From Trileptium ribeirensis (Eukaryota; Nematoda; Enoplea; Enoplida; Thoracostomopsidae), in the NCBI GenBank assembly GCA_030248225.1, contig JASANE010028274.1, positions 1 through 64,000 on the forward strand: DNA of 64,000 nucleotides, read 5' to 3'. How positions within the stretch are numbered: position 1 is the stretch's first letter; each line of letters starts with the position of its first letter. The notes under the pieces are model-generated. The model searched no databases, was not told the origin of the DNA, and was given only the letters and a program-made list of their open reading frames with translations. This document shows positions 13,767 to 64,000 of the stretch, one piece after another. Position numbers and translations under genes: made by a program.

Positions 13767-13853
13767 CTTTACAAGTAGCCTCAGATAAGGATCATTGCTA
13801 CGTGGAGCTTTCCGAACAACGCGTCTTTCGTTTTTATGACAGATATCAATGGC
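13767..13853 (-). CDS. RPL18: Ribosomal protein eL18 (RPL18), exon 2
   Basis: The 29 codons read AIDICHKNERRVVRKAPRSN then DPYLRLLVK, matching the eL18 N-terminus directly after the initiator methionine. The acceptor is TATTTTCAG before 13853 and the donor GTGAGT after 13767. Because the first codon is complete and corresponds to residue 2 of the family, the upstream exon should end exactly on its ATG, as in many ribosomal protein genes. Together the three exons give residues 2-99 of eL18, an RNA-binding component of the 60S subunit. Confidence 0.93.
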
Positions 13854-26369: not shown

Positions 26370-27352
26370 AATCCCATTAGGTGAGCCATTAGATCTTGAA
26401 AACCCTAAAAGTCGGATCGAAGCTAAACAATTATGTTATATCTTTTTATGTTTAGGGACAGGGGTTGGATGGGGATTTTTCCTTATATCGGCTTTCGGAA
26501 TTAAAAAGGGGGCGGGATTCGTCACCGAAATAATGTGAGGTTCGAGGCGTAGCCAGTAGCATGCCGGTGGGACACTTGGTACGGCGCGCGTCCTTCTTTT
26601 TCGCGAGCGAGACTAGTGCCTTATATTTTGCAATCCGGCGTGATCCTTGCTCGGCTCTACGTGCTCGAGTTTCAGATAAACGGTCAACAGACACAGATAT
26701 AGAATCTTTATTACGAACCATAAAACGTTAGGCACTGATACGCCGTCTATCACATTTGGCACTGATTTTGATAACCGTATCCGAATACGTATTCTCCTCG
26801 GTGCTCAGCTCAAAAAGCCTCGGTACCGCTCTATCGTACCGTACTTTAGCTCACGCAGACTTCAAGCTACTTTTTCGATACCGTTATTCAAGCGCTCGAT
26901 ACCAAATTGACGGTACTTTCTTTAGTACCAGATTATTTTCAGCTCTCGGTTATACACCACAAGTTTTCTTGCACAGTATGACTCTATTTTTGCACAGCCT
27001 GACACCAAAATATATACTGCACAGTCTGACGTTCTACTTTCGTTGTGCACTTTAGCTACTACCGTAAAGTGGGGTGACTTTGATAATGCGGGTGAGTTTG
27101 ATCACACGTGATCAAAGTCACCCCAACTGGCGTTGTGTAATATGACGCACATATAATAATATTATATATACCATACTGTTTCTTTTTCGGGTTCGCAGAA
27201 GCAGTATATATTGACCTTCCTTGGAAAGTGGCCTCGTCAATGCGTCATTTCTTTAACTGGGTCACCAGGACACTAGTATGCTAATTCATCTGTAAAAGCA
27301 GTAGTGCCATGCAGTGGCTTTTGGATGATATTAAAATGTTTTCCAATACTGT

Positions 27353-28255
27353 TTCTTTTTTTATGACGAAACTAATGTCACTGACGATCCGAAAGCAAAG
27401 AAAGTGATGGTTAGACGGGGAGCCAGACGTGTGGAGCGTAAAATGGAACACTCTAAGCAAGCGATTAGTGTGATGTTTTCTGGCAACGCTGAAGGAGAGT
27501 TTCTACCGCCAATGGTGGTCTACAAAGCAGAGAATATGTATTCAAATTGGGCTGCTGGGGGACCAGTTGGGAGTGTTTATGAGAACACAAAGAGCGGGTG
27601 GTTCGATTCGCGAACATTTGAAGTTTGGTTCCAAAAAATTTTTATCGAGGCCGTCAAAGAAAACCCGGGTAAGAAGCTCTTAATCGGAGACAATCTCTCT
27701 TCTCATTTTTCCCTCGATGTTATCAGCAAATGTGTCGAAAACGACATCGTTTTTGTGACCCTCCCCCCGAACTCTACGCATCTATGTCAACCTTTAGACG
27801 CCGCAGTCTACGGCCCACTCAAGAAAGCATGGTCCGACATTCTAACCGCATGGCGAAAAGAAACACGATCAAAAGGGACGTTACCGAAAACACAATTTCC
27901 TGGATTGTTGCAACGGCTTTGCCATCGTTTGAAACCTGAGAACCTCATTAACGGGTTTCGTGCTACTGGAATTGTTCCATTGGATCGGCAACAGGTGCTT
28001 AAACGGCTATCGGGAGCGAACAAAGATCCTGGTGGGCCTGAAACATCGCAAAGATTGAGCGACTCTGTCGTTAATATGCTGAAGGACAGTTGTGGAGCAA
28101 GGCCGGAGGAGGGCGGGGAAAGAAACTTGTTCCGGGTAAGCGTATCGTTGCGTTACCGCAGCCCAAGAGTGACTCGAAGACGAAAAAACGCAAGGCTGAG
28201 ATGGAAATTGAGGAGGAGGAGGAGGATGAGTGGATTTGTGGCGAATGCTCGGTAG
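27353..28255 (+). pseudogene. Pogo-type DDE transposase, catalytic domain
   Basis: The frame is open before the first ATG (27404) and already reads YDETNVTDDPKAKKV, giving the first catalytic aspartate at 27365. Then come IGDNLSSHFS (second Asp) and PPNSTHLCQPLDAAVYGPLK (third Asp), the latter two 35 residues apart as in pogo/jerky-like D35D transposases. The usual N-terminal psq/CENP-B DNA-binding domain is absent: the 220 bases between the left terminus and this frame hold no match. At about 28085 the conserved frame shifts by one base into the PHD-encoding frame, so the last ~55 codons of this ORF are out of frame. Confidence 0.85.
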
Positions 28256-35369: not shown

Positions 35370-37710
35370 GTGTCGAGTGAGTGGTAACCAGGGCGAGAGT
35401 GCAGGTGGGACTCGAAAATATTAGTAGTGTAACTGCGTCGTTTGGTAGCCGTCCGGTGTCGTCGACGAGGGAGCATTATTCTTGAGTAGACCGGGTGAGT
35501 AAGGGGACTGGTTCGGACGACCTAAAACTTGAGCATCTTAACTAAATACCAGTATCGTCATCCGTCCGGGGGCATACACTGAGCAAACTTCAACTGCATA
35601 GTAGTCCACAGCTACTGTACAGTTTTAATAACGTAGTTCGGCAGTCGTCCGGTGTCGGCATGTTTAACATAACCGGCACAACTAGCGTAAATGTAAGGCT
35701 TAGGTTGAGGTACTTATATAATCGCATGGTGCACTTTCCGTCCGGGAGCGTGTTGTGTTAAAACCATAACGTTAGTAACGTAACAGATAAAATAAAAATA
35801 AACTCTAATCACTACCGCTCAAGTGTAACCCTTAACAATAGCTTTGATAACTTAGAAATAAGGGCTAGGTCAAGTAGTCTGTAGCTTTAACTTAACCTAA
35901 GAACTAAAGTACTAGGTAAGGATTGTCGAGAACACCGAAATGAGTGGCCGAAGTGTATCGTGAAAGTGAACGTCAAACTGGTTAACTTGAGTGTCAGACT
36001 GCAATAATTGGAGTCAGACTGTGCAAGGAAACCGGTGAAGTACTAGCGTGAGCTGAAATTAATCTGGTACGAAAGAAGGCACCGCCGTTTTGATTACGAG
36101 AACTCAATCAACCGTTAGTTAAAAAACAATGTGAAGCCTGTCTGAGTTAAGGAACGGTACCAAACAACAGTGCCGAGGCTTTTCAAAATCGAATATTAGG
36201 AAGAATACATATTTCGGGAACGCTTATCAAAACTAGTGCCAAACGTGATCGACAGTATTATCATGGCCTAACGTTTTATCGTTCGCAATAAACATTCTAT
36301 ATCTGCGTTTGTTGTCAAATTATCTGGAACTCGAGCACGTAGAGCCGAGCAAGATCACGCTGCAACGCAAAATATAAGGCACTAGACTAGTTCACGAAAG
36401 AAAGACATGCGCCATACCAAGCGTCCCACCGGCATTCTACTGGCCACACCTGGAACCATACAATCTTTCGGTGACGAATCCCGTCCTCTTTTTAATTCGA
36501 TAGCCGACATAAGGACAAATCCCATGCCAACCCCTACCCCTTTGGATCTATAAAAATATAACATTTACAATTGTGTTATATTGTTTTAGATCTAGGGGGT
36601 AGGGGTTAGATGGGGATTTTCCTTATGTCGACTATCGGAATTAAAAGGGAAAGAGATTTGTTACCGGAAGATTGCGGTCCGAGGTGTGGCCGGTAGGACG
36701 TAAATATGGCGCGCGTCCTTTGCGTGATCAGTAATTATGCCTTATATTTCGCGTTGCGGCGTGTACCGTGCTCGCCTCGATCACTCTGGTTCATACACTT
36801 CAACACCAAACGCGTAGTTAATAATGTTTATTACATAACCAGATAAAATGTTAAGGCACAATATTGAGCTAATATCACCCGTTGTTGCGACACGGTATTT
36901 GACTAACGAGTAATCAGAGTCCTTCCTCAAAGCCTTTAACTTTCACTATCTCTACATCAACACGGTTACTGATCACTGAATTTTGACACCGGCTCGCTAG
37001 ATTTTTGTAGTTACCAACACACCTAGATTTTTACACACTCTTCGACCACTACCCAATCTAGGCGCGTACCTAAGGCTACTAGCGTTATCGTTAGATTACG
37101 TGCTATTTTATTACGCCTCTTGTGAGGTTTGTACGACCGCCTCCTGATGGCTGACGACGCAGATTATCTGAGTACATGTCCTAGGTCCCTAGGTTTACGC
37201 TAGTACGATTCTTATTTAAATGGTTACGCTTTGAATGACAACCCCTGTTACTTTTAGGTTAGCTATTACGTTACTAAGGCTCTTGTGAGTTCATATACCT
37301 GACCACCGGACGAATGAACGAATGCAGGGTTAATTGATTACTTTAACCTGAGCCTTAGAATTTCGCTAATAAGTGCCGGTTATATTATGTTTGTAGTCGC
37401 CTACGGATGGCTGGTAGGCTACTTTTGATGAACTAAACAGTAGCGGTCGACTACCGAATAGTTGAAGTTTGGTCAATGTGTGCTGACGATACTGGTATTT
37501 GGGTTATGATATACTCGAGATTGTGGTCGTCCGAATCCACTCCCCTTACTCGCCCGGCCTTCTCAAGACTAGTACTACTTGATTCGTCGAAACCGGATGG
37601 CTGCCAGACTCACAAGTAGCACTACTAAATTATTCGAGACCCACCTGCACTCTCGCCCTGGTTACCACTCAATCGACGCTTGAGGCCGACAAATTTTTAC
37701 GTATTATTAT
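35370..37710. repeat. Large imperfect palindrome of two LTR-like repeats
   Basis: 35370-36570 is an inverse copy of 36571-37710, centred near CAATTG at about 36570. Matching blocks include GGACTGGTTCGGACGACC (35510) with GGTCGTCCGAATCCACTCCC (37513), and GGGGTAGGGGTTAGATGGGG (36596) with its inverse at 36530. Each arm corresponds to one orientation of the repeat described at 25480-30135. The small frame at 36382-36564 belongs to the conserved block and is not a gene. Confidence 0.75.
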
Positions 37711-51880: not shown

Positions 51881-54525
51881 GTTAGCAATATTTATTTTGC
51901 TCAGTACTATTGCTTAAATTTTGGCTTGAATTCTATAATTACACACAATTTTTTGATATGATTGTCAGTCGTTATGCTTTGTTTGCACAAGACCTGATTC
52001 GAACTCATCTTCCGCTCCCCCGTAAAAGCAGCCCATGTGGAGAAAGTAAAAAAAGGGTAAAAAACAAAACAACTTCCTGGTTTTAAATCACCTTCGATTT
52101 GTAGAACAATAAATGCTGAATATGAGTATATTTATTAATCTTTTCCGCAAGGTACTTTTGAGTCGAGGATTAGAATGCAAAAGGGTTATTACAAGGGCAC
52201 ACGTACTCGAAATGCACGAAAATATCGATATATATATATATGTAACCGATGAAGATATATGAGTCATATTAAATTGATAAAATAGGTGCGGATCTATATC
52301 AAGGTATGGTGTGTTGCTATTGTGCTTACGTATGTTGTGGAATTACGTAAATATTGGTTTTAAAATATGCCCGTGAGGACCGGAATACACGAAAACGGCC
52401 AGCAAGCCATTGTAAATATATCTGTGCTATCAGGTTCATTTTGAAGACGAGGAATAATTACTACTTTACGTGTGGTAAAATTTGAGTGTAACATTGTGGA
52501 TTCTCTGTTAAGGCATCCATAACATATTTTTGCAAAGTCCGCTTGATAGCTCAGACGCAAACTAGAAATCTGATTTTGTATGTATCTCTTCAATGATGCA
52601 CCCAAACTGATTCCAATTTGTTCACTCTTAAAAGTGGGTCGGTTGAAAATAGGCTATACAAAACAAGTTTCTGGCTTCGTATTATCAACTGATAATTCAG
52701 CTAACTCGAGTTCATTTTTCAGAGCAGTTAAGGTTATATACGACTTAAGCATTTCCTATAGGCTACCCTTTGTTTTATGATTTGAGCCCAAACGAGTTTT
52801 ACAATTGCACATGAGATAGAATATGCAGAAAACGATCGTATCTTAATATATGGAAATATGCGGCTGATTTGGTTGAGCGCTTCTAGCTCTAAGTAGCTGC
52901 AATTTGTTTCCTCATGATTTTCCACGTTTTCCACCATTTTTATCATTTTGCTCATAATAAATTATTGCTAAAATTTTTCTGTGCGGCGGAGTCTCAGGCG
53001 GGGAAATATGGCTTTGGAGAGTAATCCTCAATACCCGTTCCTTCATGGGCGCCTACTGTCCACATACATTTTAAAATCTGTCTGTGACATCCGAAACGGA
53101 CGAAAACAGTCTGTCATCACAAACGTTGAGGCAACAGGGCACTTTTTGTACAAAATAGTAAGCATTGTTTAACTGCGCTGGTTACATAGCTATAGCAAAG
53201 AAATTTTTACTGCACATACATTTACTGAGAACTTTGTTTATAATGGGTATATATCGTGAATTATCTACCTACTTCTTTTAAGTCGACCGACTTCGCGTAA
53301 CTATGATATTCTACCTACATTTTACAGGGATATTTTTAGTTTGAATCTCGAACTTCTGATTTTCAAAATAATCATGATCGCAGTACATTTAAAAATGTTT
53401 ATTTGCGCCACTTTTGGAGCAAAAGGTATTAGAAATATTCAACTAATAACATTTTTGGTCTGGATTTTGTCTCTTCTTGGAAGACAATGTTCGTTGGAAC
53501 TTGAATTTTGGTTTCTTATTGATATTGGCGTCACAGAAAATTTTGGCATGCGGATATCAACCAGAATGCTCCGGGTTCAAAACCGGGGCCCATGTCAACT
53601 TTAGGGGCCGGATATTATAACGTTAGAAAAAAGGACAGCTTAGAGCGGCGGATTCGGGAGGCGGCTGCCCCTGACTTAGGCTTAGGCTTAGTACATGGCT
53701 CATATAGTGACCTTACCTTAGGCTAAGACTAAGAGTTAGGCTTAGTATATCGAGAACGGCATGGCATGTATTATAGTTCGGCCCCTAAAGTTGACATGGG
53801 CCAACACCGGGATCGTCAGATTTCACTTTTGGGCATGAAACTGGCGGCATCTGCGGTTCAACAGTGAGGCCACCAAAAACTTAAACATTGTCGAACCAGT
53901 GTTTTAATATATACATGACGATAAATTTATTAACAAATAGCCTTAGAAATCAGAAAGTTCAAGTATACTAATACATTGCAGGCCTTGGTTTGTCAATTAC
54001 CAATAATTCGAAATACATTTTTGTGTACGACAGCAATGTCAGGCTGAGGTTTATCAACATTCACGGCAATATTTTATGTATTTAGTTCACTCGGCAACAT
54101 ATCTTCGGTCAGAAACACATCCGGATTATGGTAGCTAAGGAGCTTCTTGCTTCAATGTTTTTGCGCCCCCACCGTCAAGTATTAGTAATCGATTTTTATT
54201 TGCCAAATACATTATTGTGTTGGATATATGTTTGGATGGTACAATCGCATTATAAACTGCGTAGTAATGGTCTCGTATCCTTAAAGGTAACTTGATTTAG
54301 GACATAAATTATAGCCAAAATGCTATGTGTCGAATCTTTAGTGCAATTTTTCGATGGTTTGGCGAATAGTAGAAACCCATCGGTGCTAAAGACGCATCTA
54401 GTCAAGATTTTAACATTTATATATACTTGTAATATTAAAAAAACCATCTTGCTTTTTAGTGATACATAGATATATACTATCGCTTGAATTTTATATAATT
54501 GATAAATATTTTACCTTTTGTCTAG
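51881..54525 (+). other. Intron of the SelU-type gene (2.6 kb)
   Basis: It lies between two phase-0 exons. It carries diverged satellite units (52209, 52384, 52820, 53093; GAATACACGAAAACGGCCA type) and a short inverted-repeat element at 53587-53802. No other coding sequence is supported; the frames at 52981 and 53341 are not recognised. Confidence 0.65.
53587..53802. mobile_element. 216-bp inverted-repeat element (MITE)
   Basis: The 24-bp ends GGCCCATGTCAACTTTAGGG + GCCG and their exact complement (53779-53802) enclose 168 bases. The inverse similarity extends a few bases inward (ATATTATAA with TTATAG). The interior has CTTAGGCTTAGGCTTAG. No target duplication is clear. Confidence 0.8.
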
Positions 54526-54600
54526 GCAAAAGATTTGTGGAAAGATAACGGTGCCGTTGTTATGGCAGTTCGACGCCCCGGATGACAGTTGTGCAGAGAG
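54526..54600 (+). CDS. PRXL2/SelU-family exon with in-frame TGA (probable selenocysteine)
   Basis: The acceptor TTTTGTCTAG precedes 54526 and the donor GTATGG follows 54600. The 25 codons read AKDLWKDNGAVVMAVRRPG, then TGA (54583-54585), then QLCRE. In PRXL2A proteins this is the redox site, GAVIMAVRRPGC-x-x-CRE; in the SelU selenoproteins of fish, birds and some invertebrates the first Cys is selenocysteine (UxxC). Everything else in the exon is intact, so TGA as Sec is the best reading. The protein is a thioredoxin-fold, peroxiredoxin-like redox protein. Later exons and the 3' UTR with a SECIS element are not seen before the retroelement at 56 kb and would be beyond the window. Confidence 0.8.
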
Positions 54601-56367: not shown

Positions 56368-59300
56368 CTACAGATTCCTCCCCTTTCCAGATGGCACATT
56401 AATGTCCTTCAACCCAACCGACGTAGAAGGTTGTTCTTGCATGGCAATCACCCACTCATCAACGTCCTCCAGTAACATAGCTGATCCCCCTGCTTCGCTA
56501 CTCCCGTGGCACATTTCCACTTGAATTCCATTATCGCACACGTAAGTACGAGTATTTCTCGCATCCAGTCCTCGCAGCCACTCCGGAACGGGCCGTCCCT
56601 CTTCTGCACACTTGCGTCTGACTTTTGAAGCATGTTCAGCGTTGTGCTTACGCCGAGAAGTATTACCACGATGACGACGCCTAGTGTAATCATCAAACGC
56701 GTCTCCACCGCCTGATCTAGTTACGAAACTATATTGCTTAACTGGTAACTCCGCTAAACCAATTCCCGCTCGCCCAACGCCGAGGGGAACAGCATTGGCC
56801 CCGGTTACCACCCGCGCCGCCCTTCGTGGTATTTTCTTACCTGCGACGCCCTGCTTTTTGAACTGAAATCCAAATAACCCACCGGATTCCCGCCATGTCT
56901 CGTAAGCGGATTTTACTTCCAAATTATTCCAATTTATCGGCTTCGATTTAAGATTATTGTTGACCTCCAACTCCTTAGGCCTATCCACCGCGATTGCCAC
57001 GCTACGTAGCGGCTTTGCCATATCGCCAGCCAGAGGAAAGCGATCATATCCCATGGCCATAGCCAGTTCTGGGCTCCGTGGTACAACAGCCTTATCCAGC
57101 TTCGGAATACGATAATGGCTTAGACTTCCACCTACCGGCTTGCGGTCGCTTGAAGAACGATTCACTTCCGCAATCGGGCACTCAACATTAATTTCCAACT
57201 TGACACAGTAATTATTCAGCCTCACCGTGAAATGGGCCGCAGCCCCATATTGAGGGCCGGTTATTATCATCGAATTAAAAACACTGCGAACTATCGCATT
57301 CTTCTTATCGGTTGCGCTTTCCTCCATCTCCGAGTAGTCAGAATAATCTAATACAAGTTCGTCTGGTTCCGATATATCTTCATACATAGATTCCATTGTT
57401 AAATGCAAATTTTTAGTTACGTATTTATTGCAAACAGGCTTTGAAATTAAATCATCTGAAACATCAATAGCACTAATGTCACCAACATTTCGCGCATTAC
57501 ACGATCGAGGTCTCAAGTTATATGAATGAGTAGGTTCGACACCGTTAATCGTACTATCAGCAGTGTCCGTAATACCCTCTTCATCATCTAACAAAACATC
57601 TTTCTCGCCCGACCCTTGAGCTAAATTAGGGGCAAGTTTTAGCCTGCGGACATTTACTCGTTTCAACTGTCTCCACGGACAATTAGTGTTCCTTCGGCAC
57701 GGCGTAATGAAAGCCACTGTTCCATCCGATGTTACCTGTATCACCCTATAAGGACCACGCCAGAGTCGAGCAAATTTTCGCGTTTTCCCGCGGGCAACTC
57801 GTGGAACGTATAAATACACGCGGTCCCCCTCCAATACAACTTTACCTTTTTTAATGTTGGCATCGTGAACTTGCTTTTGCTTTTGCTGAGATTTCCCTAG
57901 CGTCTGCTCAGCCAGTTCCCAAGCCGCCGACAGTTTGTGGGCTACTTCGAATGCATAATCATCCGGTGACAAATTTGGTACCTCTGCTCTAAGAGTAGTG
58001 TCTAAGGGCAATACTGGATCTCGTCCAAAGTTTAAATAAAACGGTGTCTCACCAGTCGACTCATGGGGGCTACTGCAGTAAGCGAAAGATACGAAGGGCA
58101 ACAGCGTATCCCATTCAGTTTGGCCAGAATTTATGTACATACTGATCGTGGCCTCCATGGTTCTATTAAACCGCTCGACCAGCCCATTTCCAGCCGGGTG
58201 GTAAGCCGTCGTTTGTAGTTTACGAATTCCCAACAGCCTGCAGACATTCTGAAGCAACTCAGAAGTATAATTGGCACCTTGATCACTCATCAGGTTGTAG
58301 GGAACTCCAAACTGACAGACTATGCGCTCCACGAAAATTCGTGCCACACGGATAGCTTTCATATCAGGCATTGGGTAACATGTAACCCACTTTGTAAATG
58401 AATCCATGAAAACAATTATATATTGATTTCCACGCGGTGTTCTAGGCAATGGACCTACTATATCAGTGGAAACTTGATACCAGGGGCCCACGCAGGGTAT
58501 CGGATGTAGCCCAGGTGTTATTTTTACTGTGGGGTTCTTCCTAGCCAAACAGGATGAACAAGAAGCACACCATTGCACCACGTCATTTCTCACACTTGGC
58601 CAATAATAACGATGTAAAATTTTTCCTAGGGTTTTTCGCACCCCGAAATGGCCACCTAAAAGATGATCATGACAGGCCGTGAAAACTTGCCTACGGAGAC
58701 ACTGTGGTACTACAAGTTGCTGTCGATTTCCTGCATTGCGCCAAAGCTGCCCACTACGTAGATAATAAGTATTACCCTGCATATCCTCATTTTCTGAGTT
58801 TTGTAGGTCCACATCTTGTATTTCATGCATAATTTTAGCCAGCTCTGGATCACCCTCCTGTCTTTCATGGATATTTAACGATACGCTACCGTCATTGCCC
58901 TCGAGAACAAGACGGGTCAACAACACATTCTTCGACGTTTCAGATGCATCGCGCAGCATATCAGTGCATATTTTACACTGCTGTGGACCAATTTTCAAGC
59001 CTTCCAAATCAGCGTCACCTGGTGGTCGCCGAGACAATGCATCAGCGTTTCCATTTTGTTTACCGGGCTTGTGTAAAATAACCATGTCATACTCTTGCAG
59101 CGTTAGACTCCACCGACAAAGTCGCCCATGCGGGTCTTTTACGGTTAGGAGCCACCTTAGTGGTTGATGGTCCGTAATCACAAAGAACTTCCGACCATAC
59201 AAATACGGTCGGAATAACCGTATGGCCCATACCACTGCAAGCGTCTCCTTTTCTATCGTTGCGTAGCGTTTCTCAGACTTGTTTAAAACACGACTAGCGT

Positions 59301-60045
59301 AATAAACAGGTTTATCTCTACCGTTGCCATCACATTGGCTCAATACCGCGCCTATAGCCCCATCACTAGCATCTGTTTGCACCAGGAACGGTACTGAAAA
59401 ATCGGGGTAGGCTAAAACTGGTGCTGTACTAAGCGCCAATTTCAAATTTTCAAAGGCACTTTGACAATCTGCGCCCCATTGAAATTTACGTTTTCCGCCA
59501 CACAAAGCATGCAGTGGTGCTGCTATTCTTGCGTAGTTCTTAACAAACGACCGATAGTAGCCGGCTAGTCCAAGAAAAGACTGTACCTCCCTGTCGGACG
59601 TTGGCACCGGCCAGGTAAGAACTTTTTCCACTTTTGAGCACTGCGGAAAAAATCCATCCGACGAGATGACATGACCCAAAAATGGCACAGAACTGCGGCC
59701 GAACTGACATTTTTTCAGTTTCAACTTCAACCCAGCTGCTCGGAGTCGGTCCAGAACCAGACGCAAACGCAGTAACAACTGTTCCGCGTCCGCACCCGTT
59801 ATTAATATGTCGTCCAAATAGACAAGACATATTTTCCAGTCAAGTCCAGATAAAACAGATTCCATCAAGCGCTGAAATGTAGCGGGCGCATTACAAAGTC
59901 CGAAGGGCATTTTCTGGTACTGGTATAGTCCTTCGTGCGAGATGAAGGCCGTCTTATGCCTGCTGTCTTTATCAACAGGGATTTGATGATAACCGCTTTG
60001 CATGTCAAGTGTACAAAAAAAACTTAGCCTTTCCCAACGACCCAA
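56368..60045 (-). CDS. Pol: RT core, RNase H, integrase and unknown C-terminal extension
   Basis: This 1225-codon frame is the continuation of RT after a homopolymer frameshift; its first codon (TTG) is not a start. Residues 9-25 carry RT motif A (TLDMQSGYHQIP), 76-79 YLDD, 156-165 FLGLAGYYRS. RNase H spans about 220-340 with D225, E268, D292 and ADALSRRP. Integrase has the zinc-binding region at 459-499 (HDHLLGGHFG, CASCSSC), and the catalytic triad D528, D588, E624 (35 residues apart), then a GPY/F motif (WRGPYRVI, 762-769) and a tail motif YNLRPR (842-847). Residues from about 850 to 1225 match nothing I know: acidic at first, then basic (TRRRHRGNTSRRKH, 1121-1134). The product would reverse-transcribe and integrate the element. 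Confidence 0.93.
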   Translation of the reverse strand: MGRWERLSFFCTLDMQSGYHQIPVDKDSRHKTAFISHEGLYQYQKMPFGLCNAPATFQRLMESVLSGLDWKICLVYLDDILITGADAEQLLLRLRLVLDRLRAAGLKLKLKKCQFGRSSVPFLGHVISSDGFFPQCSKVEKVLTWPVPTSDREVQSFLGLAGYYRSFVKNYARIAAPLHALCGGKRKFQWGADCQSAFENLKLALSTAPVLAYPDFSVPFLVQTDASDGAIGAVLSQCDGNGRDKPVYYASRVLNKSEKRYATIEKETLAVVWAIRLFRPYLYGRKFFVITDHQPLRWLLTVKDPHGRLCRWSLTLQEYDMVILHKPGKQNGNADALSRRPPGDADLEGLKIGPQQCKICTDMLRDASETSKNVLLTRLVLEGNDGSVSLNIHERQEGDPELAKIMHEIQDVDLQNSENEDMQGNTYYLRSGQLWRNAGNRQQLVVPQCLRRQVFTACHDHLLGGHFGVRKTLGKILHRYYWPSVRNDVVQWCASCSSCLARKNPTVKITPGLHPIPCVGPWYQVSTDIVGPLPRTPRGNQYIIVFMDSFTKWVTCYPMPDMKAIRVARIFVERIVCQFGVPYNLMSDQGANYTSELLQNVCRLLGIRKLQTTAYHPAGNGLVERFNRTMEATISMYINSGQTEWDTLLPFVSFAYCSSPHESTGETPFYLNFGRDPVLPLDTTLRAEVPNLSPDDYAFEVAHKLSAAWELAEQTLGKSQQKQKQVHDANIKKGKVVLEGDRVYLYVPRVARGKTRKFARLWRGPYRVIQVTSDGTVAFITPCRRNTNCPWRQLKRVNVRRLKLAPNLAQGSGEKDVLLDDEEGITDTADSTINGVEPTHSYNLRPRSCNARNVGDISAIDVSDDLISKPVCNKYVTKNLHLTMESMYEDISEPDELVLDYSDYSEMEESATDKKNAIVRSVFNSMIITGPQYGAAAHFTVRLNNYCVKLEINVECPIAEVNRSSSDRKPVGGSLSHYRIPKLDKAVVPRSPELAMAMGYDRFPLAGDMAKPLRSVAIAVDRPKELEVNNNLKSKPINWNNLEVKSAYETWRESGGLFGFQFKKQGVAGKKIPRRAARVVTGANAVPLGVGRAGIGLAELPVKQYSFVTRSGGGDAFDDYTRRRHRGNTSRRKHNAEHASKVRRKCAEEGRPVPEWLRGLDARNTRTYVCDNGIQVEMCHGSSEAGGSAMLLEDVDEWVIAMQEQPSTSVGLKDINVPSGKGRNL

Positions 60046-60829
60046 TGATATCGTCTATGCGCTTCATTGGATAACTATCCTTGCGCGTCACTGCATTTAA
60101 CTTACGATAGTCAACACAGAAACGCCAAGTACCATCACTTTTTTTAACCAAAACGATTGGCGATGCCCATTCACTGGCAGATGGTTCGATTATACCACAT
60201 TTCAGCATATCGTCGATTTTCTGCTTTACAACCGGACGTAATGTAACCGCTGTACGGTATGGTGCTTGCCGCACTGGCACCGCACCTTGTGTGTCAATTT
60301 TGTGTCGAACGCGACTAGCGCAGCCAAGGTCATGATCTCCCGCCGCGAAAACATCTTCGTATTCAGTCAAGAGCGCTTTCAAACTTTGTTGTCCTGTCTC
60401 GTCGAGACTACATTGAGACAAGTCCAGATCGTTAAACTTTATATGCTCAACCAGTGTTCCAGGAATAATTTCACATGCTTCCCTTGTTACAGTACCCGAC
60501 GCGTGTTGCTCACTAGTATGTCGAATTTGGTTCTCCGTTAGAACGGTCTCTCGCCCTAACGTCATATTTTGATACAATGTAACTGGAGCACACGTAGGGT
60601 TTAACAACCGTACCGGAAGCGTGCGATTCTCGGTTCGGGAAACTACAGTAGGTGCTACCACAATACCCAGATCTCGGTTCTTAATGGTATCTGACTCTAT
60701 GAGCCGAGGACATTCACTAGCTACGCAACTGACAGCTGGTACCACGCACTCTGTGCGTGGTGGAACCACGACCGTTTCCAGCAAGAATATTGGCTCGCTA
60801 GCAACAAATTTATTTGTTTCACAGTTCAT
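60005..60829 (-). pseudogene. Pol: linker and RT N-terminal part, ends at frameshift
   Basis: The frame is the same as that of the envelope-protease ORF and is separated from it by a single TAA (60860-60862); ten codons (FLEIDHHRVA) precede the first ATG. It encodes a typical Ty3 protease-RT linker (VAPTVVSRTENRTLPVRLLN) and the RT fingers: VRHKIDTQGAVPVRQAPYR, IIEPSASEWASPIVLVKKSD, WRFCVDYRKLNAVT and MKRIDDIIGSLGKAKFF. At 60015-60022 a run of eight identical bases holds one base too many and the frame ends a few codons later; RT continues in the next frame (56368-60045). A sequencing or assembly error in the run is possible. Confidence 0.88.
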
Positions 60830-60859
60830 GGCTACACGATGGTGATCAATTTCTAAAAA

Positions 60860-63349
60860 TTATCGCTTGTAATGGAGACTAAACATCCCGAGCTTACAGA
60901 GGAAACCACGTCCCAGTATAATATCATACGGCAATGTGTCTACTATTGATAATGGCCCTTTCATTGCCAATTTCCCTAATTGAATGTTAACACCAACGCA
61001 TCCCTGTATTTTCATCACATGACCCGAAGCAGATTTCACCATTCGGTTATGATCTAAGGCATCCACAGCAACAGGGATATGTGCTGCTTTTATCCTCGCT
61101 ACAGCTTCCTTTGTCACCAGAGATATTTGAGCTCCCGTATCCACGAGAGCCCTGAAGTCTTGCCCATGTATTAAAATTGTAACTGTGCCATCAGAGTTCG
61201 ACTCACGGGTGATCTGACACAGGCGATACGGTGAATATACGGACCTTTGGGTATCGCCAGGTAATCGGTCATGTGTTTGTTGTTCTGATACAACAGATAT
61301 TCCTGTCCTATCGCCCTCAACGGCTGTTAGCTCGATGGCTTGCCCCGCACGATTCACGGTTGCCCTCGCCGTGACCACGCCATAAATTTTATTCACAGCG
61401 CCCGTCACAACCGCATAATTTTTTATTGCCTTTACTGCAACACTTCCCGTTACATACAGACAGCAACCAAATATCCATATCTGAATAGGATCAATCGTGA
61501 ATCCTCTCAGGAATCCAAATATACCGGCCCTTACAATACTGCTTGCTGTGCGTTTTGCCGTTTCATGTACTGGCTCGGAACCGACCTGCATGCCAAGATA
61601 TTGAAGAACTCTACGCTGATTGTTATAATCTCGTAAAATATCGTTAAGCGAAATATGAGATCGGAATTCATGTACACGATACATTACCACTGGATGAAAA
61701 ATAACATCCGGCAATGTTTTCAACCGTTCCTTCGGTAAACGCAGCGAAGGCAAGACAAAGGAATGACCTTTCGGCTGCAACACTCCTGTTAACTGATACT
61801 GGTAAGTATGGTTACGCAGTTGTACTATTAACTGTTCGCCGTGCTCACAGTCGGCGAATGCCACCGGATCACGATGAATTACGTTGGTATTAGGATCCAA
61901 AAACCCTAACTGCGTTTCATTGCCGAACGAAAATTGCACCGGCATCCTCCTCACACATGTTGTATTTGCTGGTACCACGGTAAACTGATCATCTTCAAGC
62001 TCGGTGCATGGCCAAGCTTCTATCACCGGACCTCCGGACCGAGCTACCAGTTTATCCGACTTCAACAAAATCCGCATAGCCAGGGTAGGGGACGCTAAGA
62101 TTTGACTGCGCAAAATTTGCTGCAGATTCTGCATAGCTACACAAGTCGCAGCCACCGCATGATTAAAGGAGAAGGTTATCGCGCGGTTGGTATGTATTTC
62201 TAGGGCCTGTAGCCCTGCCGCTAACTGTGATGACGATACAACTGCCATATCAGCAGCCACTGCGGGCCGGACAGCTCTTCTAGTCTTGCGAACTTGCACA
62301 AGGTGTTGAAAAATGGAGCTTGTAGAGGTATTTCTCGCTTCCCTACTTAGAATTCGAAAGGGTATGCCTTGATCACTAAGTACCACGGTTTCGCCTTCAC
62401 AATCCCTCATAGTTTTTCCGTCCGAAAAAGTGAGAGCTATAGTACCGTCGTTAGATAACCATTGATTCCCGCGAAGATGACCAGGCATCACGTTCCATGG
62501 AAGAATTTCACATGTTTCTGTTTTATTGGGCTTCCATCGCAAAAATTTACCGTCTTTCAAGCTACAACTGCCAAGTTTATAACGACAATGGGATACGTCA
62601 GATGCAGTTGATTCCATCTCAGTCTCGCCATGCCTTTTGTACACTCGGACCTTGCTCAAGAAACAGTTGGTGACGGAAAATTTTTTCCAGCGGCAGCAAT
62701 GGATGCCGCCGCCTGGATATTCCCACTTTAAATCGGCGCCCGTAGTCCAAACGTCTCCATCCGGTTTAAGATGGCCCGCTTCGCACACTTTGAATTTATA
62801 CATACGATCACACTCGTCTGGCCCGACAAATTCGGTTTTGACCTGCGATCTTTTTAGATTCTCGTCAGCAAAAAAATAAGTAAAGGTTTCAACAATCGAC
62901 GTCTGTTTTTGGCACAGCCAGGCTTCGCTTACGAACTGCACAATGTTTCGTCGGTACAGCTGAACCTCGCTGAAAACAGGAATCTGACTGTTTTTGCTCT
63001 CTATTTTCTTACAACTTGTTAGTGGTGGGAAGCGCCACATCTGGGCTGCCTGCGCTGAGCTGCAAAGCAACGGGTTTGGGAACCACGTACCCGCGCGTAC
63101 TGGCACCACTGTTGCCAGTAAGAGAGCCAGACAGCACAGTAGCAGTGGCACCAAGAAACTGTTAGCCTTCCTAGAGTTAGGTATTGTCGATCCTACTTCC
63201 AGTACGGTTCCCATCAACATCGAGACCTGTGAATATGATACAGAATCCAATCGGTGTTGACTGTTATTGTTGTCTTCATGTATACCATCGACATCTTGAT
63301 CGATTCTAGTCCATTTGTCATCGACGGTTTCAGATGATACCGTACCCAC
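60860..63349 (-). CDS. Envelope-like glycoprotein fused in frame to protease
   Basis: The 829-codon frame starts at GTG only by convention; it is open back to 63393 and overlaps the end of gag. Residues 64-86 form a strongly hydrophobic signal-like segment ending VRA before GTWFPN. Residues 87-620 are a cysteine-rich ectodomain (C96, C113, C146, C180, C189, paired C218-C219 and more) with five N-glycosylation sites (275, 340, 462, 477, 513), and a furin-like site RKTRR at 354-358 followed by an Ala/Gln-rich helical region. Residues 621-640 (PIQIWIFGCCLYVTGSVAVK) form a transmembrane helix. A ~70-residue linker then leads into the protease. This is the plan of a class I or III viral fusion glycoprotein; resemblance to chuvirus-like glycoproteins captured by invertebrate retroelements is possible but unproven. 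If expressed, it would allow membrane-enveloped particles. Confidence 0.7.
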   Translation of the reverse strand: MGTVSSETVDDKWTRIDQDVDGIHEDNNNSQHRLDSVSYSQVSMLMGTVLEVGSTIPNSRKANSFLVPLLLCCLALLLATVVPVRAGTWFPNPLLCSSAQAAQMWRFPPLTSCKKIESKNSQIPVFSEVQLYRRNIVQFVSEAWLCQKQTSIVETFTYFFADENLKRSQVKTEFVGPDECDRMYKFKVCEAGHLKPDGDVWTTGADLKWEYPGGGIHCCRWKKFSVTNCFLSKVRVYKRHGETEMESTASDVSHCRYKLGSCSLKDGKFLRWKPNKTETCEILPWNVMPGHLRGNQWLSNDGTIALTFSDGKTMRDCEGETVVLSDQGIPFRILSREARNTSTSSIFQHLVQVRKTRRAVRPAVAADMAVVSSSQLAAGLQALEIHTNRAITFSFNHAVAATCVAMQNLQQILRSQILASPTLAMRILLKSDKLVARSGGPVIEAWPCTELEDDQFTVVPANTTCVRRMPVQFSFGNETQLGFLDPNTNVIHRDPVAFADCEHGEQLIVQLRNHTYQYQLTGVLQPKGHSFVLPSLRLPKERLKTLPDVIFHPVVMYRVHEFRSHISLNDILRDYNNQRRVLQYLGMQVGSEPVHETAKRTASSIVRAGIFGFLRGFTIDPIQIWIFGCCLYVTGSVAVKAIKNYAVVTGAVNKIYGVVTARATVNRAGQAIELTAVEGDRTGISVVSEQQTHDRLPGDTQRSVYSPYRLCQITRESNSDGTVTILIHGQDFRALVDTGAQISLVTKEAVARIKAAHIPVAVDALDHNRMVKSASGHVMKIQGCVGVNIQLGKLAMKGPLSIVDTLPYDIILGRGFLCKLGMFSLHYKR
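60863..61210 (-). CDS. Retropepsin-type protease domain
   Basis: This is the C-terminal part (about residues 714-829) of the envelope-protease frame. It has FRALVDTGAQISLVT with catalytic Asp at residue 737, and YDIILGRGFLCKLG (residues 808-821), the paired flap and ILGR signatures of Ty3-type aspartic proteases. It would act as a dimer on the polyprotein. The position just before RT is normal; what is unusual is that an envelope-like domain precedes it without a stop. Confidence 0.9.
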
Positions 63350-63362
63350 AATTTGAGAGATT

Positions 63363-63393
63363 TTAAATGTTTCCCCAGTTTTTTTGTAAGGCC
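63363..63393 (-). other. gag-pol overlap, +1 frame relation
   Basis: The pol frame opens after a TAA ending about 63394 and gag stops at TAA 63363-63365, so 31 bases are read in both. Pol is in the +1 frame relative to gag. The overlap holds a run of seven A (CAA AAA AAC in gag phase) and ATT TAA at the gag stop. Either a +1 (or -2) frameshift or an indel in this copy is implied. Confidence 0.6.
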
Positions 63394-64000
63394 GTTAGAC
63401 AGTCACAGTTATTAATGTTATTCATTTGTGGGATTGTGCCACCGCCAAAATTCCGTGGTGGGAAAACGGTGCGCCTGTTAACGCGGTTTTTCTCGCTGTC
63501 AGCAGCAATATTTCCACGTGCTCTGCAATCAGCGGTATTATGCGCACGTGAGCGATGATACTCGCAATATTTCGCTGACTGACTCTGTTGATAGCAGCTC
63601 AGTGCTATATGACCAGCTTTACCGCACAACTGGCAAATCGGCTTATTAGCAGATGTGAACCGTTGCGGTTCATACATCGGTAACTGGGCAGATTGAGAAG
63701 CCCTTCGGTTGGCACACCAAGAAGTTTCTGACGCCTGTTCCAGACGATCAATTCTTTCGAGGAGCTTTGTCGCCCACGACGGCATATTATTTCTGCCTAC
63801 ATTAGAACTTCGACCACCTTGATGTTCCAGTTCGTCTATTCGTTTGGTGAGATCCAGCGCCCATATAGGCGCTGCACGGTCACCGTCATTTCCGGTAGCA
63901 CGTGGCATTCCAGCTGCTTGTCCCGGCGTAGATTTTTCAATGCGTTCTAGACGCATTGCTACTTGTTCCAGGCTTTGAGCTATTTGTGGTTGAGCACTAA
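63363..64000 (-). CDS. gag, C-terminal part with two zinc knuckles (partial)
   Basis: The frame is open to the window edge (reading SAQPQIAQSLEQVAMRLERI), so the ATG at 63956 need not be the start. It has repeated coiled segments (LTKRIDELEHQG, LLERIDRLEQASE), then a CCHC knuckle CQLCGKAGHIALSC (2-4-4 spacing) and a second zinc-binding motif CEYHRSRAHNTADC (C-x2-H-x4-H-x4-C), followed by a basic linker. It ends LTALQKNWGNI at TAA. It would package element RNA. The capsid part lies beyond the window. Confidence 0.85.
   Translation of the reverse strand, partial: SAQPQIAQSLEQVAMRLERIEKSTPGQAAGMPRATGNDGDRAAPIWALDLTKRIDELEHQGGRSSNVGRNNMPSWATKLLERIDRLEQASETSWCANRRASQSAQLPMYEPQRFTSANKPICQLCGKAGHIALSCYQQSQSAKYCEYHRSRAHNTADCRARGNIAADSEKNRVNRRTVFPPRNFGGGTIPQMNNINNCDCLTALQKNWGNI

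Follow-up and report, generated by a model that had tools for sequence, protein, structure and literature searches.

The TGA codon at positions 54583–54585 of the DNA described here is likely read as selenocysteine (Sec, U), at the redox site of an intact and apparently single-copy SelU1 gene, in what is likely an invertebrate animal; we put the probability of this reading at about 94%. The stretch of DNA analyzed—'the window'—is 64,000 bases long and comprises bases 1–64000 of an 89,262-base contig in a 687-Mb assembly, contig and window coordinates being the same. The initial annotation had singled out one 75-base exon of this window, bounded by an acceptor and a donor, as the active-site block of a PRXL2/SelU gene, and had proposed that its TGA takes the place of the first cysteine of the redox pair, in an organism that keeps this family in Sec form. 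The coordinates of the exon proved exact, and the gene to which it belongs turned out to be an intact SelU1 gene of five exons in which this TGA is the sole in-frame stop.

Gene structure

The features of the gene are as follows, those past the window end being given in contig coordinates.

51716..51880, + strand: exon 1, beginning at the probable start ATG; N-terminal part, likely a membrane anchor plus linker, MISFSTLGYGFVSAASAVLLWANLPTRLTLRMSVATIEYLSATKLKTVDGGVTFD
51881..54525, + strand: intron 1; 2,645 nt, phase 0, GT...AG
54526..54600, + strand: exon 2, the predicted redox-site exon, AKDLWKDNGAVVMAVRRPG-U-QLCRE; from tblastn, profile and splice sites
54583..54585, + strand: TGA codon 75, predicted selenocysteine; sole in-frame stop, at the Cys column of homologues
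54592..54594, + strand: TGC, Cys78, second member of the predicted UxxC pair; the gene's only Cys codon
54601..64000, + strand: intron 2, window part; continues to contig 66056, 11.5 kb overall
contig 66057-66197, + strand: exon 3, past the window end
contig 69681-69825, + strand: exon 4, past the window end
contig 72107-72222, + strand: exon 5, past the window end

The gene is complete on the contig, with all of its splice junctions GT-AG and with 213 codons followed by TAA. Two exons lie inside the window; a first search for others in the window after 54600 found none, because intron 2, at 11.5 kb, runs beyond the window end into the rest of the contig. The remaining exons, which the initial annotation had suggested seeking downstream, are indeed there, at 66057–72222, and the gene is undisrupted elsewhere: among its 213 codons, codon 75 alone is a stop. 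That the 75-base exon might be an orphan, or a retro-fragment, was considered and is ruled out by the four further exons. Exon 2 itself comprises 25 codons in phase 0/0, coding for AKDLWKDNGAVVMAVRRPG-TGA-QLCRE. The acceptor TTGTCTAG stands directly before 54526, and the donor GTATGG follows 54600, so that the exon is flanked by TTTTGTCTAG on the 5' side and by GTATGG on the 3' side.

Exon 1 scores lower than exon 2: tblastn gave E 0.035 with a PRXL2A query, E 0.059 with P0044, a Cys-type PRXL2A-like protein, and E 0.007 with P0081, another homologue, the last two alignments being with the N-terminal segments of those proteins. Its profile score, 13.1 bits, was exceeded in one of 20 Markov windows (13.8 bits; the next reached 7.6). 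It is convincing despite these weak scores because strand, order, phase and splice sites all fit: it is collinear with exon 2 and on the same strand, it is bounded by AG and GTTAGC, and it ends in phase 0 at the very point where the family goes on with A-K-[DE]-L-W. A hydrophobic anchor is predicted within it, and its ATG probably serves as the translation start.

When the whole genome was searched with P0044, all four of the candidates scored were exons of the SelU1 locus. Among scored candidates, then, the genome has one SelU1 locus, and the gene is apparently single-copy.

Family assignment and relationships

Exon 2 was matched by tblastn with the PRXL2A query at 76% identity (19/25; E 1.3e-7 in the window), and a profile built from 120 homologues gave it 32.3 bits. 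The best score among 20 first-order Markov windows, each of the same length as the real window, was 13.8 bits, and together with the tblastn E-value this control rules out a chance match. Searching for proteins with just the first two exons gave two matches among 11 candidates, and Pfam found no family either in the 25 residues of exon 2 alone or in exon 1. The spliced protein is more informative: it is 53% identical to P0044 over 208 amino acids (201 bits), and it matches PF13911 (AhpC-TSA_2) with 56 bits against a cut-off of 27 (E 6e-15). A scan of the genome with PF13911, exon by exon at E 0.001, gave no matches. The redox motif of the family, RRPG-[CU]-x-L-C-RE, appears here as RRPG-TGA-QLCRE, in columns that are conserved in most of the 120 homologues. 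Judged by its sequence, the gene is a member of the SelU1/PRXL2A-type family.

SelU1 is the Sec form of PRXL2A, known also as FAM213A and C10orf58. With it our gene has in common the TGA at the active-site Cys column, the motif RRPG-U-xLCRE, the PF13911 domain and an N-terminal hydrophobic segment, the last predicted here. It differs from SelU1 in the residue directly after the Sec position, which is Q here and F in 101 of the 120 homologues listed, and in that its SECIS is a candidate hairpin only. The Cys form of PRXL2A, which is thought to use its CxxC for redox chemistry, can be aligned over 208 positions, exon 2 ending at the family's CRE|EA, but the first Cys of that form is replaced by TGA here. 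PRXL2B (prostamide/PGF synthase, of the SelU3 group) was the one protein that a search of solved structures brought up at E 0.01, with two entries (PDB 9us9 and 9usa). It aligns with residues 37–205 (65 bits, E 6.3e-17), leaving the N-terminal hydrophobic segment unmatched, and it has RRFG where our protein has RRPG, and GCVVC as its redox site. Going by 201 bits for P0044 against 65 bits for 9us9—scores from different programs, compared without a tree and with PRXL2C outside the comparison—the gene is nearer PRXL2A than PRXL2B.

A Sec-type SelU1 in such an animal has precedents. According to PMC3473315, the Cys form of PRXL2A occurs in mammals and frogs; all of the invertebrate SelU1 proteins in Figure 2 of that paper contain Sec, and three SelU1 Sec proteins are reported there from six invertebrates. 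A passage in PMC3316567 places the Sec-containing vertebrate SelU proteins in SelU1, and one in PMC4244043 credits a centipede with 20 selenoproteins. Since Sec-type invertebrate SelU1 has been published, a gene like the present one is to be expected, its selenoprotein family being a known one. With it, the likely invertebrate set gains a further Sec-type SelU1, in agreement with Sec being ancestral in the subfamily. A gene of this sort would likely be broken or dropped by automatic annotation, in which TGA is taken for a stop; here it can be seen intact.

Selenocysteine machinery in the genome

The initial annotation had implied that the organism retains the machinery for Sec insertion, and parts of it are present. 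A gene for tRNA-Sec lies at C8762:42850-42935 and scores 81 bits, where the gathering score is 47; ARAGORN finds it too, with anticodon UCA (tca). Six matches to this family are listed in the genome, two of them over the gathering score, the second being partial (57 bits) and about 180 bases away from the first. The family matches all 14 control genomes as well, over the cut-off in five, and so only the strong 81-bit match counts. For SepSecS, six of the seven candidates scored match, all of them above the cut-off and on two contigs, and we read them as separate exons; one holds a TAA inside the matched stretch, perhaps at an exon edge. Controls matched by the SepSecS family as well include Bacillus subtilis and two archaea.

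For selenophosphate synthetase (SPS), seven exon matches were found on contig C17317, none of them reaching 125 bits, the cut-off for the whole protein, as is to be expected when exons are scored singly. A search for the motif upstream brought out the first exon of SPS2 (SelD), which reads LTALTDLKG-TGA-GCKVPRE, with TGA at 36487–36489; LKG-U-GCKVP is presumably where animal SPS2 carries its Sec. The protein is unrelated to SelU1, yet it is a second gene of the same genome with TGA in a Sec-type motif, so that two genes on different contigs have TGA at exactly such sites. It is very likely that this animal decodes selenocysteine. In passing, C17317:18145-41056 contains two copies of SPS2 in inverted orientation, both with the TGA; the 1,001 bases compared between them are 100% identical, and the pair may have arisen by recent duplication or be an artefact of assembly.

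The TGA codon

The TGA is followed three residues on by TGC, giving UxxC, the arrangement that the initial annotation had pointed out. Among the 120 aligned homologues listed, the column of the TGA holds Cys in 101, a gap in 11, V in four, W in two, L in one and S in one. These homologues are the best 120 of 549 matches to a query with Cys at this column, and the sample leans to Cys-type proteins for that reason; wherever an organism name is shown, it is a vertebrate. Among the 19 rows without Cys, three from fish (P0099, P0111 and P0119) are missing exactly this residue, and two (P0106 and P0107) have W in its place. From their sequences, these five are probably mis-annotated Sec forms, the omission or substitution being a work-around of annotation. 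The other 14 are truncated, mis-spliced or different at the site, some of them mammalian proteins with a different front part, and they give the Sec reading no support.

Could the gene instead be a recent pseudogene, or a nonsense allele, in which mutation of the Cys codon to TGA truncates the protein? A single change suffices to turn TGC or TGT into TGA, the Rfam models find no SECIS here, and a Gypsy-like element sits within intron 2. The pattern of stops speaks otherwise. Of the single changes in exons 1 and 2 that could make a stop, one in 35 falls on codon 75, and none of the 86 possible in the other 212 codons has occurred. Past the TGA, the frame stays open for 138 codons, whose alignment with the family reaches the end of the protein. 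The genome has kept tRNA-Sec, SepSecS exons and an SPS2 that bears TGA, and a second, Cys-type copy is absent among the scored candidates. We consider a pseudogene very improbable, and the earlier argument that a random nonsense mutation would hardly have hit this one codon, with all else conserved, has held up well.

Another idea is that exon 2 is mainly skipped, as a poison or regulatory exon, which would leave a protein lacking its redox site. At 75 nt and in phase 0/0, the exon could drop out with the frame kept. Yet no exon of the gene is better conserved: 22 of 25 residues are identical to P0044 when TGA is counted as Cys (the alignments of the other exons show about 37 to 62% identity), and skipping leaves this conservation unexplained; we rate it lower still than a pseudogene. 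That TGA is read as some other amino acid (Trp, or whatever general read-through inserts), or is an assembly error for TGC or TGT, is scarcely credible: UGA in SPS-like genes is read through in some insects that lack Sec, but the six Trp codons of the SelU1 gene are all TGG, which rules out Trp, TGA stands at Sec-type sites in two genes on different contigs of a genome with tRNA-Sec, and a base error would have had to strike exactly this codon.

The search for a SECIS element

The initial annotation had proposed looking for a SECIS element in the 3' UTR of the gene. One candidate hairpin was found by hand, and the Rfam models matched nothing. The Rfam SECIS models gave no match over the whole contig at E up to 5, nor in two stretches of the 3' region rescanned at E up to 10, and a strict energy scan found no SECIS in the first 1,078 nt after the SelU1 stop. 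The candidate, at contig 74236–74294, 2.0 kb after the stop, was found by reading, after a crude scan. Its layout is SECIS-like: GGCUUU, then GUGA, then C, a 9-bp helix (UGUAUGGAC/GUUCAUGCA) and, 13 nt after GUGA, AA; on the 3' side CGAU closes the GA quartet, with AGCGCC below. An AATAAA follows at 74329, 35 nt past the hairpin. There is an earlier AATAAA at about 72702, and this may end the mRNA ahead of the candidate.

How exceptional the hairpin is depends upon the measure. In an energy scan of 72223–74600 it came second (–14.8) to a hairpin at 74407 (–28.0, no AA), the median best value over 74 tiles being –14.3 and the candidate's AA not being counted as unpaired. Its fold has no extra stability: 104 of 200 shuffles were as good (z 0.12). 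As a match to a strict core pattern—one written, it should be said, after the candidate had been seen—it is the sole site in 89 kb on both strands, and the same pattern matches nowhere in a background of 400,000 nt (twenty 10-kb stretches of other contigs, read on both strands); in Markov sequence it occurs 0.0025 to 0.0058 times per 2,178 nt. With one base of slack, the background yields no site when the helix must have 8 bp or more, one site for a minimum of 7 bp and six for a minimum of 6 bp, and a third, loosened scan yields 0.63 background sites per 2,200 nt. The candidate has GUGA where AUGA is usual. In its treatment of SECIS elements, PMC3473315 reports GUGA in many from sponges and AUGA in almost all of the other invertebrate ones.

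SPS2 was used as a control. The loosened pattern found nothing in 6,021 nt around the SPS2 3' end, Rfam found nothing over 801 nt, and the third scan found three weak hairpins in the SPS2 3' region. One of these three, a UUGA hairpin about 83 nt after the SPS2 stop, shares with the SelU1 candidate a distance of 13 nt to its AA; it could be a product of chance. Taken together, the SECIS results do not discriminate between the readings of the TGA. A bolder proposal is that the animal belongs to a poorly sampled, deep-branching lineage of protostomes or ecdysozoans that has SelU1 in Sec form and drives it with a divergent SECIS of GUGA type, which lies 2 kb downstream of the stop, has its AA 13 nt past the GUGA and is beyond the reach of the Rfam models; its SPS2 would have an equally divergent element. 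We hold this to be possible but unlikely. If the element is truly divergent, it would show why standard SECIS models miss such elements in poorly sampled animals.

Should the Sec reading be right, events might proceed as follows. The SelU1 mRNA would carry a SECIS element in its 3' UTR, for which the hairpin 2.0 kb after the stop is the candidate; this would recruit SBP2 and eEFSec, and Sec-tRNA would be delivered at UGA75. The product would be a membrane-anchored protein with a thioredoxin fold, in which U75 and C78, as a U-x-x-C pair, perform redox chemistry. By analogy with known SelU1 and PRXL2A proteins, the SECIS, the insertion of Sec, the anchor and the redox activity are all plausible for this product.

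Other features of the window

The DNA of the window is rich in transposable elements, and its ratio of observed to expected CpG is 1.09. The Gypsy-like element of intron 2 (56368–63998, – strand) crosses the window end and lies antisense to SelU1. One of its ORFs has an aspartic protease and, next to it, a stretch similar to the fusion glycoproteins of viruses; the matches, to PF00606 (E 2e-4) and PF24664 (E 0.02), fall short of their cut-offs. A hint from telomere repeats that the animal is a nematode was dropped, as no runs of three or more were present in the bases examined.

A gene for ribosomal protein L18 occupies the – strand near the start of the window, with three exons at 13850–13764, 12006–11875 and 3699–3598, the longest intron being about 8 kb; the stretch from the third exon to the window start (base 1 of the contig) yielded no further one. 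Among the best 120 of 561 matches to this part of L18, the best scores belong to horseshoe crabs and beetles, with 70 or 71 of 95 to 97 residues identical. Among 25 of them, the highest identity (72/97) is that of a springtail, but the scores lie close together, with many other invertebrates only slightly behind, and no close named relative stands among the 120. It is from this comparison that we take the animal to be a likely invertebrate.

At 27335–28255 (+ strand) there is a transposase ORF (DDE_1, 85 bits), which we take to be of the pogo/Tigger type. A long imperfect inverted repeat at 36455–36680 (– strand) resembles Rfam MIR7723, at 66.5 bits against a gathering score of 200, and is perhaps a MITE-like palindrome.
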